Shown here one piece after another: positions 1 through 23,398 of a DNA stretch of 61,028 nt. Each line of letters begins with the position of its first letter. The first letter of the stretch is position 1. This stretch comes from a virus: the IMG/VR virus record IMGVR_UViG_3300036774_000039, positions 1-61,028 of that record. One strand, given 5' to 3'. A program made the translations under genes and the position numbers. The notes beneath the pieces were generated by a model. That model saw only the letters and a program-made list of their open reading frames with translations. It ran no database searches and was not told the DNA's origin.

Positions 1-123
1 CCGCCCCGCACCGTTCAAACCCATGAGGTAGTGCCATGGCTTCGGCTCCAGCACTACGAGTACCAGTACAGGTTTTAATCCCCCCGGCGACTCCAGCCCC
101 GACCCAGACTATCTGGACGGAGA
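1..123. repeat. Direct repeat closing the circular genome (left copy)
   Basis: Bases 1-123 are identical to 60906-61028. An exact overlap at the two ends of a contig is what an assembler leaves when a circular or terminally redundant molecule is closed. It contains the end of the lectin-like fibre gene and the first 88 bases of the repeat-protein gene. It is more likely an assembly overlap than a biological terminal repeat, but a short direct terminal repeat cannot be excluded. Confidence 0.9.
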
Positions 124-2021
124 TTTCTCAGCCTTACGCTTCACGACGCGCTCCCGCCCTTCTTACGGCAATTATGGCGGGGTCACTCTTTATGCCCTTC
201 CCTGTTCAGGCTCCCGTCCCACGGATGGATTCGTGGAATGGACAGAAGCCTGATGTCATTTTTAGGGCCAAAGAAGAACGATACGCCTATCCGTCATTCT
301 TCGCTCCTGAACGTCAGCCTCTTCCCAGAGACAATAGCTGGCAGGGTCAATGGCCGGACTATCTCTTTAAGCCGAAAGAGGAACGGTACGCTTACCCATC
401 ATATTTCGGGATAGAGAATCAGTCTTTCCCCAGAGGGCAGGAATGGTACGGTCAATACCCGGATGCAATCTCCCGGGTACGCGATCTCCGGTATACCTAT
501 GAGAGCTTCTTCTCTCCATTCGTAACGGCCGCTCCGGTTGTTCTTCCTGATAGGTGGCTTCCATCTCTAGAGAAACAAGCCGATAGACTCAAAGATCAGC
601 AATATATCTCTGACTCTGAGTTTTCGCCTGATCCCATACCTATCGTTCTTGCAGATAGATGGCACCCTCTGATTGAAGTCAGGGCCAATGACTTCAAAGA
701 CCAGACGTATATCGTCGATCAAAACTGGTTCTGGGATTCTTCCTATGCCGCAGACTATTCGGGTTCACTATATCCATCCCTAGTAAAACAGGCTGATAGA
801 CTTAAGGATCAGCAATACATTACCGATTCCGAGTTCTCTCCTGATCCTATTCCTATAGTTTTAGCCGATAAGTGGCATCCTCTCATAGAGGTTAAGGCTA
901 ATGATTTTAAGGATCAGACGTATATCGTTGACCAGTCATGGTTCTGGGACTCGACGTACGATGCTGACTATTCGGGAACATGGCAGTATCAGGACGTAAA
1001 TCCCTTTGAGAGACCCGACAATCGCTGGACAGCCCCATGGGAAGCACGCACAGATATAGTCATTGGTGCAGTAATCTATGCGGATAAATGGATAGGATAT
1101 CAACCGGACATACTCTTTAGAGCTAAAGACTTAAGGATTCTCTATCCGTCTCTTTCGTGGCCCGAAATCCAACCAGTTCCAAGGATGGATGGATGGTCGT
1201 CTACTACTCTCCCAAGTTTCTTTAAGGGTAAAGAAGAAAGGTACCTTTACCCTTCGATATTCTGGCCCGAGATCTTACCACCTATATTTGTCGATAGGTG
1301 GATAGGCTTTCAACCTGATATTATTTTTAGAAAGACGGATCCTAGGTTCACTTATCCTAGTCTAGCTTTCTATCCACTCCCACTTCCTTCACCTATTTTC
1401 TTAGATAAGTGGGTCCCGGACTATCCCGACCGGATCGACCGTCTGCAGTCGAGGACGTGGATCACGTACCCGGTTCTCGAGCTCACGCAGAGCCAGCGCC
1501 CGGAGACGATCTACCCTGATAAGTGGCTCTGGGTGTACCCAGATTACTTCAGGGCGAAGGAAGAGCGCTACCTCTATCCGAGCCTCTCCTGGCCCGAGAT
1601 TCAACCCCTGGTGCTGCCTGACCGCTACTACGAGCCAATCGTACAGCCCGTCCAGCGAGTCTTCCGGCAGTACGACCGGCCCGGCGACGTCTTTGTGGTC
1701 GCCCCGGCGTTCAACAAACTGGACTGGATTCCGAGCGTCCCCGATTTCATCAATCGGCTGAAGAACCAGAATTACATCACGATCGGGGATCTCATTCTCA
1801 CGCCGGCCCAGAGGCCGGAGATTATCACGCTCGACAAGTGGTATAACCAGACATCGCTACCATTCCATCTCTTTAACTTACGGCGCTTACAGTATCTCTA
1901 TCCAGACGTTAGCGAGTGGTTTGTAGGAGTTCCTATAAACGCAGGACATAACACACGCCTCATCATAGTCGAGGGACGTCTTGCTTACAAGGTTGGTAAA
2001 ATCGAATATATATGGCTATAA
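36..2021 (+). CDS. Repeat-rich tail-appendage protein (unknown function)
   Basis: A 661-aa protein, probably virion-associated because it follows the lectin-like fibre gene by 4 bases across the circle junction. It has no recognised enzymatic motif. It is built from about 15 degenerate units of roughly 30-40 residues with the pattern W-x-G-x-x-PD-x-x-(F/R)R-x-KE-x-RY-x-YPS or DRW-x-P. Residues 177-243 and 248-314 are an almost identical tandem pair whose codons have diverged, so the duplication is old and the protein sequence conserved. Base composition changes within the gene: about 480-1400 and 1840-2021 are AT-rich, while 1401-1840 is GC-rich, which suggests a mosaic. ATG 36 follows a GAGG box. 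Repeats of aromatic, proline and acidic residues could build a fibrous or shell-like structure; this is inference. Confidence 0.75.
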   Translation: MASAPALRVPVQVLIPPATPAPTQTIWTEISQPYASRRAPALLTAIMAGSLFMPFPVQAPVPRMDSWNGQKPDVIFRAKEERYAYPSFFAPERQPLPRDNSWQGQWPDYLFKPKEERYAYPSYFGIENQSFPRGQEWYGQYPDAISRVRDLRYTYESFFSPFVTAAPVVLPDRWLPSLEKQADRLKDQQYISDSEFSPDPIPIVLADRWHPLIEVRANDFKDQTYIVDQNWFWDSSYAADYSGSLYPSLVKQADRLKDQQYITDSEFSPDPIPIVLADKWHPLIEVKANDFKDQTYIVDQSWFWDSTYDADYSGTWQYQDVNPFERPDNRWTAPWEARTDIVIGAVIYADKWIGYQPDILFRAKDLRILYPSLSWPEIQPVPRMDGWSSTTLPSFFKGKEERYLYPSIFWPEILPPIFVDRWIGFQPDIIFRKTDPRFTYPSLAFYPLPLPSPIFLDKWVPDYPDRIDRLQSRTWITYPVLELTQSQRPETIYPDKWLWVYPDYFRAKEERYLYPSLSWPEIQPLVLPDRYYEPIVQPVQRVFRQYDRPGDVFVVAPAFNKLDWIPSVPDFINRLKNQNYITIGDLILTPAQRPEIITLDKWYNQTSLPFHLFNLRRLQYLYPDVSEWFVGVPINAGHNTRLIIVEGRLAYKVGKIEYIWL

Positions 2022-2034
2022 CTGGGGGAGATTT

Positions 2035-2370
2035 ATGACACCGGAAATGATAAAACGCGGTGGGAGGGGGGTCCTAACTGTGTCCCTGTCCGTCATCGCT
2101 GCGTTCGGAGGGGGGATGGTGGGAGCAGTATACTCTTCCGGGAAGATGTATCAGCAGGTTCAGGACATCCGATTCGACGTCAACTCTTTGCAGAGCGACG
2201 TCAGACGTCTCGACCAGTCCGATCTGAGTCAGAAAGAGAAAATCGAGGCGCATGAGGTACGGATTGACAACCACGACAACCTCCTGAAGGAAATCCACGC
2301 GGAGCATCAGGCGATGATACGTTCTCTGGGGAGGATTGAGGGGAAGCTGAATTTCATGTCTGAGAAGTGA
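2035..2370 (+). CDS. Membrane-anchored coiled-coil protein, spanin- or holin-like
   Basis: A 111-aa protein with a short basic N-terminus, one hydrophobic segment at about residues 12-32 (VLTVSLSVIAAFGGGMVGAVY) interrupted by small residues, and a long heptad-like helix at about 38-105. That layout resembles inner-membrane spanins and phage DUF-type coiled-coil membrane proteins. ATG 2035 is preferred over an upstream in-frame start at 1981 because it follows a GGGGGAG box by 5 bases and avoids overlap with the preceding gene. It is the last gene of the late, tail-side operon. The role is inferred only from topology. Confidence 0.6.
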   Translation: MTPEMIKRGGRGVLTVSLSVIAAFGGGMVGAVYSSGKMYQQVQDIRFDVNSLQSDVRRLDQSDLSQKEKIEAHEVRIDNHDNLLKEIHAEHQAMIRSLGRIEGKLNFMSEK

Positions 2371-2378
2371 GAAAGCGC

Positions 2379-2460
2379 CAGGTCTAGTGAGAAATGCCGG
2401 CGACGTGACCAGGACCGCGCATCCCGGTGTGTCCATCGTTCGGTCAATCTCCTAGACCTG
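2379..2460. other. Structured intergenic element between late and early regions
   Basis: The non-coding stretch 2371-2577 carries a strong inverted repeat: CAGGTCTAG (2379-2387) pairs perfectly with CTAGACCTG (2452-2460). After one bulged T the stem continues as GAGA (2389-2392) with TCTC (2448-2451). Inside, TGACC (2406-2410) can pair with GGTCA (2442-2446) and GGAC (2412-2415) with GTCC (2431-2434). No U-run follows, so it is not a classical terminator. It could be a processing site, an RNA element at the end of late transcription, or an origin/packaging feature. Nothing else is seen up to the promoter at 2578. Confidence 0.5.
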
Positions 2461-2577
2461 TGCCCCTTACCGCAAGCGCAAGATAAGAATCAATCACCGT
2501 TATTGTCAAGTAGAATCACGTAGCAAAGACCGCGCCACAATCCCCGGAAATAGTCTCATCTTTTTATCCATTTCCTA

Positions 2578-2606
2578 TTGACAAGCGCCTTCGGATATGC
2601 TATATT
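2578..2606 (+). promoter_or_regulatory. Early promoter P1
   Basis: TTGACA (2578-2583), a 17-base spacer and TATATT (2601-2606): a near-consensus sigma70 promoter. It shares the upstream extension CCTATTGACA with the promoters at 10870 and 23202, and the downstream TTGTGTG with 10870. Transcription should start near 2613, 33 bases before the first gene. Confidence 0.9.
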
Positions 2607-2645
2607 GTGTGCGTTCAAAGGCACACAAACAATCAGAAGGAAGCC

Positions 2646-2870
2646 ATGCCGAGGAAACCCATTCCCCAGAAAGACCCGAACAGGCTCAGAACGCATCGCG
2701 TACCGGTTCACTTCAATGACGCGGAGCTCTCCCTCCTGGACAAACTCGTCCACCGCTACCACAAGGCAACGATCAACCAACTCCTCACGACACCGCTCGT
2801 CGACCGCTCCAGCCTGATCCGCTACATGGTCGTGAAGGCGGCGCTGGCCCTGCCGAAGGAGGGGAAGTGA
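2646..2870 (+). CDS. Small ribbon-helix-helix-like regulator
   Basis: A 74-aa basic protein, the first gene after promoter P1. Residues about 17-30 (RVPVHFNDAELSLLD) form a predicted beta strand and helix, and DRSSLIRYMVVKAA near the C-terminus is typical of the second helix of CopG/Arc-type regulators. The family binds operator DNA as dimers, so it may control the early promoters. ATG 2646 follows AGGAAG; an upstream in-frame ATG at 2607 lies almost at the transcription start and is unlikely. RHH assignment is from pattern only. Confidence 0.6.
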   Translation: MPRKPIPQKDPNRLRTHRVPVHFNDAELSLLDKLVHRYHKATINQLLTTPLVDRSSLIRYMVVKAALALPKEGK

Positions 2871-2998
2871 AACTCTGGAAACTCGCCGTGATACTCGGCC
2901 TCTTTGCTGCAGGATTCTATGCCGGCATGAGAGCAAAGGAAAAGTACGATAACGCCGATAACAGGCCCGAGGGGGGAGACCTATGGCCCTCCGAATAG
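2867..2998 (+). CDS. 43-aa single-pass membrane protein
   Basis: A GTG start overlaps the stop of the previous gene (GTGA) and follows GGAGGGG. The product begins MKLWKLAVILGLFAAGFYAG, one transmembrane helix or uncleaved signal, followed by a short charged tail. It overlaps the next gene by 16 bases. Translational coupling, a good ribosome-binding site and the hydrophobic segment support a real gene. No function can be assigned. Confidence 0.6.
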   Translation: MKLWKLAVILGLFAAGFYAGMRAKEKYDNADNRPEGGDLWPSE

Positions 2999-3180
2999 AA
3001 GGAAGCCGTGACCTCTGGGACTACTCCTGGAGGCAACGCAAGAGAATGTACCGCATCGTCCTGCAGAGGCCGTATCGGTTCTACCTGTTATTCCTCACCC
3101 TCTGGAGTGTGTTCGTATGCTGGAGGGCGTACGTGATCCCGATGATGAAATCAGCCAACCGAATGAAGGGCGTCGAATGA
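2983..3180 (+). CDS. 65-aa basic membrane protein
   Basis: ATG 2983 follows a GGGGGGAG box. The first 30 residues are very basic and aromatic (WDYSWRQRKRMYRIV), followed by a hydrophobic helix at about 33-52 (FYLLFLTLWSVFVCW). It lies between another membrane peptide and the nuclease gene in the same operon, overlapping both by a few bases. Function unknown. Confidence 0.6.
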   Translation: MALRIEGSRDLWDYSWRQRKRMYRIVLQRPYRFYLLFLTLWSVFVCWRAYVIPMMKSANRMKGVE

Positions 3181-4046
3181 AGATCGAACTGAAAGAAATC
3201 GTCGAAATCAACGGGAAAAAGGTGCTTCGCGTCACAACTGTCGACGAGCGGTGGTACATCGACCTCGAGGTGAAGGACAGGCCGTTCCCCTCTATGACGT
3301 GGATCTCCGGCTACTATCCCAAGGGCAAGGGCTTCTACATCTGGCTCTCGCAACACGGATGGGACGAGGCTCAGGCGATCACACAGGACGCGGCCGACAA
3401 GGGGAGCAGAGTCCATCATGCGATCGACGCTCTCTTCAAGGGCGCGACGCTTCACATGGAAGACCGATTCCCTGACAGCGAGGGAGTCGAGGGGGAATTC
3501 TCTCTCGAGGAGTGGGAGTGCGTCATGGCGGTCAACGACTGGTGGAACGAGATGAAGAAACTCGGCGCAGTCGACATGAACCAGAGCGAGAAGACGGTCT
3601 ACAACCGCACACTCTGGTACGCCGGGACGCAGGACCGGAAGATCAAGATCCCCGCTCAGAAGGTGCCCACCAAAGTGAAGAAGGGCGAGGAGCCGAAATT
3701 CGAGATCATCCCCGAGCAGATATGGATATTCGACTTCAAGACGGGGCAGAATGTGTGGCCCTCTCACGAAATCCAACTCACCGGCTACAAACACTGCGAC
3801 GGGAACGAAGACGTCACCCATCTGGGCATCGTCCAGATCGGCTACCGGGCGAACAAGCGCGGGTGGAAAGTGACCGAAGTGCAGGATCAGCCGGCCCTCC
3901 TGAATGCAGCGTACACGATCTGGAAGAAGGAGAACGACGGGAAGAAGCCGGCCCAGAAAGACTATCCCCTCTCCATCTCGTTCGTCGATGGAGAAACATA
4001 CATCCAACTCGATACGGAGGCGTCGCGTGAAAGTAACCCAGCGTAA
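3177..4046 (+). CDS. PD-(D/E)XK nuclease, RecB/Cas4-like exonuclease
   Basis: A 289-aa protein with the ordered motifs of the RecB-family nuclease fold: GSRVHHAIDALF with the motif-I histidine (H80/H81), GTQD with D153, DFKTG with D186 and K188, and the EIQLTGY box with Q200 and Y204. Such enzymes degrade or process DNA ends with divalent metal and in phages commonly feed recombination or replication. A lysine- and proline-rich stretch at about 157-175 sits between motifs II and III, probably as a surface loop. ATG 3177 is chosen because it overlaps the previous stop (ATGA). It is followed by a coiled-coil partner gene overlapping by 20 bases. Confidence 0.85.
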   Translation: MKIELKEIVEINGKKVLRVTTVDERWYIDLEVKDRPFPSMTWISGYYPKGKGFYIWLSQHGWDEAQAITQDAADKGSRVHHAIDALFKGATLHMEDRFPDSEGVEGEFSLEEWECVMAVNDWWNEMKKLGAVDMNQSEKTVYNRTLWYAGTQDRKIKIPAQKVPTKVKKGEEPKFEIIPEQIWIFDFKTGQNVWPSHEIQLTGYKHCDGNEDVTHLGIVQIGYRANKRGWKVTEVQDQPALLNAAYTIWKKENDGKKPAQKDYPLSISFVDGETYIQLDTEASRESNPA

Positions 4047-19358: not shown

Positions 19359-19609
19359 AATGTAAGTATTGCCCCCAGGAGATCGACTGGAAGCCCACGG
19401 TACGAGGGAAGAATATGTGTGTCGAGGCCCATCCCTACATCCGAGACGGATCAGAACCGCCCCGCAAAGGGACGTACATCGACGAGACTGGCGTGACGTA
19501 TCGGGAGACGCAAGTCCCCTGCAAGGTAAACGTCTGGCGCTGCCACTGGTCCGACTGTCCCGGTTCTGAGGAGGCGAGGAAGCAAAAAGCCCCGCCGAAG
19601 CGGGGCTAG
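19355..19609 (+). CDS. Zinc-ribbon protein at the end of the rightward accessory operon
   Basis: An 84-aa protein starting MKCKYCPQEIDW with a later WRCHWSDCPG; two CxxC-type knuckles can hold zinc. Its stop TAG (19607-19609) overlaps the stop of the convergent leftward gene in the palindrome CTAG, and its last codons lie within the terminator stem. Unknown function. Confidence 0.6.
   Translation: MKCKYCPQEIDWKPTVRGKNMCVEAHPYIRDGSEPPRKGTYIDETGVTYRETQVPCKVNVWRCHWSDCPGSEEARKQKAPPKRG
19583..19607 (-). terminator. Terminator of the leftward operon
   Basis: On the minus strand an 8-bp stem AGCCCCGC/GCGGGGCT with a TTCG tetraloop (19588-19607) is followed by TTTTT (19583-19587). UUCG loops with a U-run are a strong intrinsic terminator. 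On the plus strand no U-run follows the stem, so rightward termination would be weak. Confidence 0.88.
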
Positions 19610-19964: not shown

Positions 19965-20408
19965 CTACCTTGATTTGTAAAGAGCCCGAACGGATTTGTA
20001 CTGCCTCTCAGCGCCACCGCCCCCTGAAGAGTCCCGGCGAGCTATCTCCAGGTGGATGGGCATCCACCCCGTCGACTTGCCGACGATAAACCGCCGCGTC
20101 TCCCCGTATGTTGTCACAACCTCAACCCTCCACCCTTCCAGGCTGACTAGATAGGGGGAGAGGCCGACCGCACTCCTCCACCCCGTCTCGACGTTCTTTT
20201 GCCTCCCGAAAACGTGCAAGTCCTCATTGAAGTTATACGCCTTCATCGTCCCCTTGCGGATTCCCCGAGGGATTGGTTTCCCGAGCTCGGCAGCGAGCCC
20301 CCGCATTTCTCTGTCCAGATTATCGAAGCCATAGCAGGACCACCCCGAGCCGGTCGGAATCACGAAGAGTCGATCCTTTCGGTTTATCTTCACGCCGTTG
20401 TTTTTCAT
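19965..20408 (-). CDS. Conserved phage hypothetical protein
   Basis: A 147-aa protein: RKDRLFVIPTGSGWSCYGFD at the start, then GWRVEVVTTYGETRRFIVGKS and TGWMPIHLEI. I recall this arrangement from small proteins in phages of many hosts, with no known function. ATG 20408 overlaps the stop of the upstream gene; an in-frame ATG at 20456 would overlap it by 52 bases. Confidence 0.65.
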   Translation of the reverse strand: MKNNGVKINRKDRLFVIPTGSGWSCYGFDNLDREMRGLAAELGKPIPRGIRKGTMKAYNFNEDLHVFGRQKNVETGWRSAVGLSPYLVSLEGWRVEVVTTYGETRRFIVGKSTGWMPIHLEIARRDSSGGGGAERQYKSVRALYKSR

Positions 20409-20650
20409 ATCATCCCCGCAAGACAAAGAACGCTGGCGACCGAATGCGTCCCGCAAGCCTCACAGAGACCCCGAGACTGATCGGGCTCGACTTCCTGGGT
20501 ATAGTCACAGTCAGGGTTGATGCAGATACCGAGTACCACCGAGTCGAATACCGCCGCCTCGATTAACTCGTCTCGGGTTTGCCCCTCTATCTCCGCGAGT
20601 CGTTCGAGTTTCGACTGTTCCAGAGTGAAGACACCGCAGACGTTGAACAT
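20405..20650 (-). CDS. Small zinc-ribbon phage protein
   Basis: An 81-aa protein: MFNVCGVFTLEQSKLERLAE, then CINPDCDYTQEVEPDQ and CEACGT, a two-knuckle zinc ribbon. GGGAGG lies 5 bases upstream of ATG 20650, itself 48 bases after the predicted cleavage site of the hammerhead at 20670-20728. Function unknown. Confidence 0.7.
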   Translation of the reverse strand: MFNVCGVFTLEQSKLERLAEIEGQTRDELIEAAVFDSVVLGICINPDCDYTQEVEPDQSRGLCEACGTHSVASVLCLAGMI

Positions 20651-20669: not shown

Positions 20670-20728
20670 AGCCTCATCAGTACCGGCATCTACCGGCAGA
20701 CCGGAGCCCCGAGGCCCCGGTTTCGGCT
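20670..20728 (-). ncRNA. Type II hammerhead ribozyme (second in operon)
   Basis: Read on the minus strand 5' to 3': AGCC (stem II), GAA, a 9-bp stem III with TCGG loop (20700-20721) closed by the required A15.1-U16.1 pair, C17 at 20699, a 6-bp stem I with TAGATG loop (20681-20698), the core CTGATGA (20674-20680) and GGCT closing stem II. All invariant core positions are present in the circular order of type II motifs, open at stem II. Predicted cleavage is 3' of C17, between 20699 and 20698. The motif starts in the last base of the upstream stop and ends 5 bases before nothing but a short leader and GGGAGG. Confidence 0.93.
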
Positions 20729-20904
20729 TAGGGCCGTATGTAGGCGTTGACACCGACCGTAACGGGTTTACCGTTGATTTGCGCGGTTGTCTCCTGGTTC
20801 CCATGACTGGAAGCCACGACGAGGGTTTTCCTCGAGGCGCTCGGCGCTGGGCTCTGCAGGTCCAGAACGATTGTCAGGCGCTTTCCATCGCTTGTAACAG
20901 TCAT
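20728..20904 (-). CDS. 58-aa conserved phage protein
   Basis: MTVTSDGKRLTIVLDLQSPA followed by SASRKTLVVASSHGNQET and GKPVTVGVNAYI; I recall the SASGKTLVVASTxGNQxT...GVNAYI pattern from small proteins of many phages, function unknown. ATG 20904 follows AGGGAGG. It is flanked by two hammerhead ribozymes, so cleavage would yield a short message carrying only this gene. Confidence 0.7.
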   Translation of the reverse strand: MTVTSDGKRLTIVLDLQSPAPSASRKTLVVASSHGNQETTAQINGKPVTVGVNAYIRP

Positions 20905-20926: not shown

Positions 20927-20982
20927 AGTCTCATCAGTCCAAGCGTTCACTTGGAGACGGGGCAGAGCGCCCCGTTTCGACT
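20927..20982 (-). ncRNA. Type II hammerhead ribozyme (first in operon)
   Basis: Minus strand 5' to 3': AGTC (stem II, 20979-20982), GAA (20976-20978), stem III ACGGGGC/GCCCCGT with GCTCT loop (20957-20975), C17 at 20956, stem I TCCAAG/CTTGGA with TGAACG loop (20938-20955), core CTGATGA (20931-20937) and GACT (20927-20930). Every stem is perfectly paired and every invariant core base is present. Cleavage is expected between 20956 and 20955, leaving a 51-base leader before ATG 20904. It begins immediately after the TAA at 20983-20985. Confidence 0.95.
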
Positions 20983-21414
20983 TTATGCCTCTAGCAATTC
21001 GAGACGATGATCCACCCGAGGAAGACGAGCCCCAGGAAGAGTGCGAAAGACAGAAAGCCTAGTATTTCCTTTCGAGTGAGCGGTTCCACGGTGCCTCCTT
21101 TCAATCGGGATGTCTTTTGTCCACCCAGCATCGACGCAGAAAAGTAAAATCCAGTCAGCCACAAGGGAGCGCCTCCCGTCCCGTAACGAGCGAACAACCG
21201 CCAAATGACCCCCAGCCATACGGCCTAGAAACCCCTCGCGGTTCGTCCACGCCTCGACGATCCACGGTTCCCTGAATATCGCTGGCCCCCGGAAGCCTCC
21301 GAGCGGGCGTATTCCGTCCTGAATATAGACCACCTCACCGACCGGCACAGTCCCGCGCCGGTGAGGGGAGCCCGCAGCAAACCTCTGGGCGTAATATTGG
21401 TGTATCATATCCAC
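20983..21414 (-). CDS. Hypothetical protein (C-terminal half uncertain)
   Basis: A 143-aa frame beginning MDMIHQYYAQRF. The first about 105 residues, with PVGEVVYIQDGIRPLGGF and WIVEAWTNREGFLG, look like a real small domain. The last about 35 overlap a tiny membrane-protein gene with its own strong start and read like an unselected frame. ATG 21414 overlaps the upstream stop by 10 bases. The stop lies at the edge of the first hammerhead. Confidence 0.55.
   Translation of the reverse strand: MDMIHQYYAQRFAAGSPHRRGTVPVGEVVYIQDGIRPLGGFRGPAIFREPWIVEAWTNREGFLGRMAGGHLAVVRSLRDGRRSLVADWILLFCVDAGWTKDIPIERRHRGTAHSKGNTRLSVFRTLPGARLPRVDHRLELLEA
20991..21089 (-). CDS. 32-aa membrane peptide
   Basis: GTG 21089 has AAAGGAGG five bases upstream. 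The product is MEPLTRKEILGFLSFALFLG followed by LVFLGWIIVSNC: a short charged N-terminus and one transmembrane helix. It overlaps the tail of the 143-aa frame in another frame and is followed by the first hammerhead. Function unknown. Confidence 0.6.
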   Translation of the reverse strand: MEPLTRKEILGFLSFALFLGLVFLGWIIVSNC

Positions 21415-22533: not shown

Positions 22534-22574
22534 CGTGAAGCCCTTTCTTGTTGTGGTTGAGGTTGAGGAGGGAG

Positions 22575-22593
22575 GAGGGGAGTCGAACCCCTC
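22575..22593 (-). other. tRNA T-arm-like hairpin, no complete tRNA
   Basis: On the minus strand GAGGGG-TTCGACT-CCCCTC has the exact loop of a tRNA T-arm, followed by CCTCCCTC that could serve as a 3' acceptor strand. No 5' acceptor, D-arm or anticodon arm fits upstream. It might be a tRNA 3'-end remnant of the kind used as phage attachment sites, or simply an intergenic hairpin. Confidence 0.3.
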
Positions 22594-22615
22594 AGAGACC
22601 ACGCTCCCCCGAGAA

Positions 22616-23173: not shown

Positions 23174-23202
23174 TAATATATAGGGAGGTATGCCCGTTGT
23201 CA
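23174..23202 (-). promoter_or_regulatory. Leftward promoter PL
   Basis: On the minus strand TTGACA (23197-23202), a 17-base spacer and TATATT (23174-23179). It has the same CCCTATTGACAA context as P3. It drives all leftward genes from 23134 to 19606. The leader has CACACA stretches before the ribosome-binding site, as do other genes of this operon. Confidence 0.9.
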
Positions 23203-23398
23203 ATAGGGAAGAGAAGAAAAAAGCGCCGAAGATAGAGCGGAAAGGCAAGATTGCTGCCGAACGCGCAACGCTGGAAAAGCAAGGAAAGACGCGGGAGAAA
23301 TGGAGAGATTCAACCCTCGAAATTGAGCGGGAAACACAAACCAGGTTACCCGAGAAAAACCCCTTGACATTGAACGGAATTCCCCGCAAATTCGACGC
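23203..23398. other. Divergent intergenic region
   Basis: The stretch between PL and the small-terminase gene holds no clear gene. A rightward frame from ATG 23190 to 23471 (93 aa, very lysine/arginine-rich) starts inside PL and overlaps the terminase gene, so it is doubtful. TTGACA at 23364-23369 has no good -10 partner (CAAATT at 17 bases). Confidence 0.4.

Follow-up and report, generated by a model that had tools for sequence, protein, structure and literature searches.

Type II hammerhead ribozymes were described by Perreault et al. (2011; PMC3088659), who reported that clusters of them flank genes in prophages. Three tandem sets cleaved in vitro and one in E. coli, message processing was proposed as their role, and 14 of 18 hammerheads matching the consensus were active. 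In a 2017 hammerhead review (PMC6155905), clusters are likewise said to flank small ORFs, the function of phage hammerheads is treated as an open question, and the tertiary contacts of type II are given as usually Watson-Crick. Publications on tandem hammerheads around phage genes date back to 2011, and the kind of element considered here is already known.

The window analyzed here is a whole IMG/VR record of 61,028 bases from a virus of bacteria, whose phage major head protein belongs to PHROG 9953. It holds two elements, HH1 and HH2, that share with the type II hammerheads of Rfam family RF02276 (PMC3088659) the permutation with an open stem II, the core, the phage context and the placement of copies on either side of small genes. 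However, a pseudoknot between loop I and the tail is part of both the published consensus and RF02276 but is missing from the window copies. Stem II comprises 2 bp in the consensus and in RF02276 and 4 bp in HH1 and HH2, and stem I, which is longer in the former, spans 18 nt in HH1 and HH2 and carries a UNRNNG hexaloop. The triple hammerheads around ardA of A. tumefaciens (PMC3088659) resemble them as consecutive hammerheads that separate the genes of one phage transcript. Cleavage of that set has been demonstrated in vitro and in E. coli. The genes differ, a 58-aa gene being enclosed in the window. Arrays of Twister-P5 (locus L145) are similar in that a homolog of the 58-aa gene has self-cleaving ribozymes on both sides, but they belong to an unrelated ribozyme class.

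Two hammerheads in a leftward operon

The majority of the genes in the window point rightward, while a block of small genes is oriented leftward and extends from a promoter match to a terminator. The promoter (23175–23203, minus strand) is a consensus match only, of the sigma-70-like form TTGACA-17-TATATT, and the operon ends at a strong intrinsic terminator with an 8-bp stem and a T run (19588–19607, minus strand). HH1 (20927–20982) and HH2 (20670–20728) lie on the minus strand inside this block. The ORF upstream of HH1 (20983–21408, minus strand) overlaps the preceding gene at an ATGA and ends in a TAA (20985–20983) that directly precedes HH1, at a distance of 0 nt; it is overlapped in a different frame by a 32-aa membrane-like ORF (20991–21089, minus strand) with a strong ribosome-binding site and a stop 8 nt upstream of HH1. 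Between the two hammerheads lies the 58-aa gene (20728–20904, minus strand), which belongs to a small conserved phage family and whose TAA contributes its last A as the first base of HH2. A Cys-rich 81-aa gene (20405–20650, minus strand) follows downstream of HH2, with a 48-nt leader after the predicted HH2 cut, and further downstream in the operon a 147-aa gene (19965–20408, minus strand) matches PHROG 10759 (unknown function). The 58-aa protein and its neighbours were compared with Pfam, PHROGs, NCBIfam and PADLOC, and only PHROGs of unknown function were found.

Read on the minus strand from 20982 to 20927, HH1 begins with the 5' strand of stem II (AGUC, 20979–20982), which pairs with GACU at 20927–20930. 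It continues with GAA and the 7-bp stem III hairpin (20957–20975), made up of ACGGGGC, the loop GCUCU and GCCCCGU, with A15.1 at 20975 and U16.1 at 20957. C17 (20956), after which cleavage is predicted, is followed by the 6-bp stem I hairpin (20938–20955; UCCAAG, hexaloop UGAACG, CUUGGA), which is the predicted 5' end of the downstream RNA, and by the core CUGAUGA (20931–20937). Stems II, III and I comprise 4, 7 and 6 bp, with every position paired and the core intact. The preliminary description of HH1 as a type II hammerhead with these stems therefore matches the sequence base for base, and it agrees with a covariance model from other phages and with the covariation among relatives presented below. 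Its placement between genes of the leftward operon, the position of the predicted cut at 20956/20955 and the length of the leader, 51 nt up to the ATG at 20904, were likewise borne out. Two statements needed correction. The cut had been placed right after the upstream stop, but it is the ribozyme that starts there, and the predicted cut is 27 nt past the stop at 20985–20983. In addition, the core had been called sufficient for self-cleavage, which is too strong in view of the activity of 14 of 18 consensus-matching hammerheads (PMC3088659).

HH2 has stems of 4, 9 and 6 bp, a loop I of UAGAUG, and C17 at 20699, with a predicted cut at 20699/20698. Many stem positions differ between HH1 and HH2 while the pairing is kept, and both contain the complete core CUGANGA ... 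GAA, the A15.1-U16.1 pair and H17. Three helices surround the core in each, with stems I and III closed by loops and stem II open, as in the type II permutation. The start codons are located 26 nt (HH1) and 23 nt (HH2) past the core, about 20 nt beyond the end of the ribozyme. When folded in isolation, each element adopts the hammerhead as its minimum-energy structure. In a 2D folding model that included the flanks, stem II of HH1 had a probability of 0.4–0.5 while emerging and <0.1 once the start-codon region was present, and stem II of HH2 was outcompeted (probability ∼0). For the relatives, the same model gave stem II probabilities of <0.05 in 70% of class A and 30% of class B, the two groups defined in the following section; its output thus weighs neither for nor against activity.

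Relatives with a four-base-pair stem II

A pattern scan of IMG/VR on core bases only matched at least 120 stretches, and among the matches listed there were at least 189 complete type II hammerheads in 111 loci, with up to ten per locus. The pattern fixes few of the stem bases, and pairing can therefore serve as a fair test of the fold. Among the matches listed, the halves of one sequence paired in 92% (stem III) and 96% (stem I) of cases, compared with ∼20% for halves mixed between sequences. In a hexaloop set (n = 57), which was not selected for pairing and includes the two copies of the window itself (locus L001), own versus mixed halves paired in 96% vs 6% for stem I, 100% vs 13% for stem III and 95% vs 20% for stem II. 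A1, whose members had been pre-selected for paired stems, contained 213 double-sided changes.

The relatives fall into two classes. Class A has a stem II of 2–3 bp, a stem I of ∼22 nt and usually a pseudoknot between loop I and the 3' tail, an architecture that equals the published consensus (PMC3088659); this pseudoknot reached at least four Watson-Crick pairs in 67 of 99 cases, against 26 expected from shuffled partners. Class B, which we define here as the subgroup with a four-bp stem II, has a stem I of 17–18 nt, a loop UNANG or UNRNNG and, in 68 of 72 members, an A directly 5' of stem II. A loop I-tail pseudoknot of at least 4 bp was found in only 2 of 72 class B members versus 4 expected, and a loop-tail AUG:CAU match was at most weakly above shuffles, so this pseudoknot is not supported for the subgroup. 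HH1 and HH2 have no loop I-tail pseudoknot of at least 4 bp either; HH2 has at most the 3-bp AUG-CAU. Fast hammerhead cleavage requires peripheral contacts. The pseudoknot, which is the usual contact, is lacking in this subgroup. Supplementary figure S5 of Perreault et al. may already cover this subgroup.

Both window copies are hexaloop members of class B, and loop I of HH1 is identical to that of a relative at another locus (L026, UGAACG). They were also matched by a covariance model (R1) built from 44 class B sequences of other phages with the window excluded, with 53.2 bits and E = 2.5e-11 for HH1 and 53.6 bits and E of about 2e-11 for HH2. In the Rfam scan, Hammerhead_II (RF02276) ranked first among all families for each of them, with 31.4 bits for HH1 (E = 0.02 against all families) and 28.7 bits for HH2. 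The refuting outcome named in the preliminary description, a search without a covariance-model hit, therefore did not occur, but both scores fall short of the gathering cut-off of 37 bits. We ascribe this shortfall to the architecture of the subgroup, which departs from the Rfam model in the relatives as well: among the Hammerhead_II matches listed for 11 contigs with class B, scores were 25.6–33.6 bits and none reached 37. Class B is common in IMG/VR and present in bacterial genomes of many phyla, where the copies presumably sit in prophages. Because it is widespread yet lies under the Rfam threshold, pipelines that apply Rfam cut-offs would miss it.

The relatives also share the gene context of the window copies. 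Of 187 relatives among the matches listed, 134 have a stop codon between –3 and +5 nt relative to the start of the ribozyme, compared with 3.6% of random positions; a ribosome-binding site and start codon are found just downstream in 161 of 189, and the start codon is a median of 27 nt past CUGAUGA. The spacing at HH1 and HH2 agrees with these values. No hammerheads were found in the nearest relatives of the phage (G001–G003 and Serratia phage JS26). The nearest one found, G002, with a capsid protein 69% identical, is without the operon genes and without the ribozymes, indicating that the phage lineage can do without these elements.

Several further observations were made among the relatives. 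At one locus (L076, 3925–6746, minus strand), ten type II hammerheads are packed into ∼2.8 kb, and almost every gene junction has its own. A 6.7-kb phage contig with a class B hammerhead also contains RNAs resembling RAGATH-24 and twister-P1, both of which score below cut-off (L084, 174–372). The core variant CCGANGA (U4C) with complete stems was detected at L139 (877–930), L219, L008 and L021 (two copies), giving five cases against 326 canonical cores, while A or G at position 4 never occurred; in these cases the first pair of stem I is mostly C-G, not U-A.

Proposed processing of the operon and alternative readings

Taken together, the sequence, the fold, the family membership, the covariation in relatives and the placement at gene junctions argue that HH1 and HH2 are probably genuine cis-acting type II hammerheads that split the leftward polycistronic mRNA after C17. 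Each hammerhead would fold once transcribed and cut after C17, most likely during transcription, leaving a 2',3'-cyclic phosphate on the upstream and a 5'-hydroxyl on the downstream product. The upstream message would then end in the stem III hairpin just past its stop codon, while the stem I hairpin would form the exact beginning of the downstream message, whose start codon follows about 50 nt later. Cleavage would thereby yield single-gene messages, with at least three RNAs from the operon; one of them would be a 257-nt monocistronic RNA (20955–20699) for the 58-aa gene. The hairpin-capped ends are expected to resist end-dependent nucleases, so that neighbouring genes could differ in stability and expression. 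In support of processing, the genome contains exactly two complete cores with complete stems, and these lie in a single operon. A precedent exists in the tandem phage hammerheads that cleave in vitro and, for the A. tumefaciens set, in E. coli as well (PMC3088659). A genome in which two near-perfect ribozymes enclose one small gene within a single operon offers a clean test of the purpose of phage hammerheads.

The Rfam scores under the cut-off could be taken to mean that GC-rich hairpins resemble a hammerhead by chance. We scanned all 61 kb for exact cores with modest stems and used first-order shuffles as controls. HH1 and HH2 were the only exact-core hammerheads in the record, whereas shuffled genomes gave 0.025–0.07 exact-core matches each, none with stems like those of HH1 and HH2. 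When the window was searched for further hammerheads, with types I and III included and one core mismatch allowed, only chance-level matches emerged. Two copies at adjacent gene junctions, against 0.03–0.07 expected per shuffled genome, together with the E of about 2e-11 from the independent model R1, rule out a chance origin, to which we assign a negligible probability.

Two other readings accept the fold and differ in what it does. Active hammerheads could serve regulation, if ribosomes at the abutting stop covered stem II and GAA and cleavage occurred only when the upstream gene was not translated. In HH1 and HH2 alike, the upstream stop codon indeed adjoins stem II or overlaps it, and the same spacing recurs in the 134 of 187 listed relatives mentioned above, against 3.6% of random positions. 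However, such tight spacing may only reflect the compactness of phage genomes, and we consider this reading unlikely. The elements might instead be hammerhead-shaped remnants that cleave inefficiently and are kept as stable hairpins at gene junctions. Core-degenerate versions do adjoin homologs of the 58-aa gene (CCGACA at L136, CCGAUGA at L139), and 4 of 18 tested consensus hammerheads were inactive (Perreault et al., PMC3088659). Yet decay would be expected in the core as often as in the stems, and in HH1 and HH2 both are perfect, which makes this explanation distinctly improbable. On a broader scale, we tentatively suggest that small-gene phage operons might be split gene by gene via interchangeable junction elements, comprising pseudoknot-free type II hammerheads, pseudoknotted hammerheads, twisters and a tRNA-elbow-like minihelix that host RNase P probably cuts, and that class B might fold via a tertiary contact new for type II.

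The 58-aa gene family and other junction elements

The 58-aa family is characterized by the motif PxPSASGKTxVVASSHGN...NGKPVxxGxNAYI and has 21 relatives in IMG/VR. At L145, six Twister-P5 ribozymes are located within 3.3 kb (21–3288), with one on each side of the 58-aa homolog. Hammerhead-like folds with altered cores lie directly past the stop of the homolog at L139 and L136, a class B hammerhead is found near the homolog at L150, and a class A locus (L036) encodes a distant homolog. Most of the 21 homologs are without a nearby ribozyme, and an obligate association of ribozyme and 58-aa gene was therefore rejected; the link is loose.

The tRNA-elbow-like minihelix was traced from a T-arm-like hairpin adjoining 58-aa homologs. 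It consists of a 5-bp outer stem, an 11-nt bulge with GGCA, a 6-bp inner stem and a UUCGANU loop, and it sits at gene junctions in Streptomyces and many other phages, with up to 11 copies per contig. Examples are L218 (8468–10502), L274, L291, L316 and L299, as well as Streptomyces phage Lika (NC_021298, L378), where six copies occur within 6 kb (509, 1580, 2274, 2999, 3564 and 4931) and no annotated feature underlies the listed matches. By blastn, 225 phage records match. Two extra pairs not used in selection, between bulge columns 9 and 15 and between bulge column 16 and the last loop base (column 31), were formed in all 53 sequences, and each of the two was represented by five pair types. 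This suggests a tRNA-elbow-like fold, for which such covarying pairs are expected. In the contigs tested, the minihelix had no Rfam match and ARAGORN reported no tRNA; the element is apparently unannotated and is possibly a host RNase P processing site. Our literature search found no paper on it; the older phiC31 literature lay outside that search, and we presume that such work may have described it.

In the window, a T-arm-like hairpin at 22568–22610 (minus strand) occupies the gap before a 96-aa gene of the same leftward operon. With a 7-bp outer stem, a 10-nt bulge, a 6-bp stem and a UUCGACU loop it looks minihelix-like by eye, but it gave no match to covariance model R2 and was rejected as a member. 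Directly past the stop of a 58-aa homolog at L143 (2186–2225), a position corresponding to that of HH2, lies a minihelix-like hairpin with a partial R2 match only. At L142 (2185–2229), a minihelix (R2, E = 4e-4) directly follows the stop of the 58-aa homolog, the place that HH2 occupies in the window.
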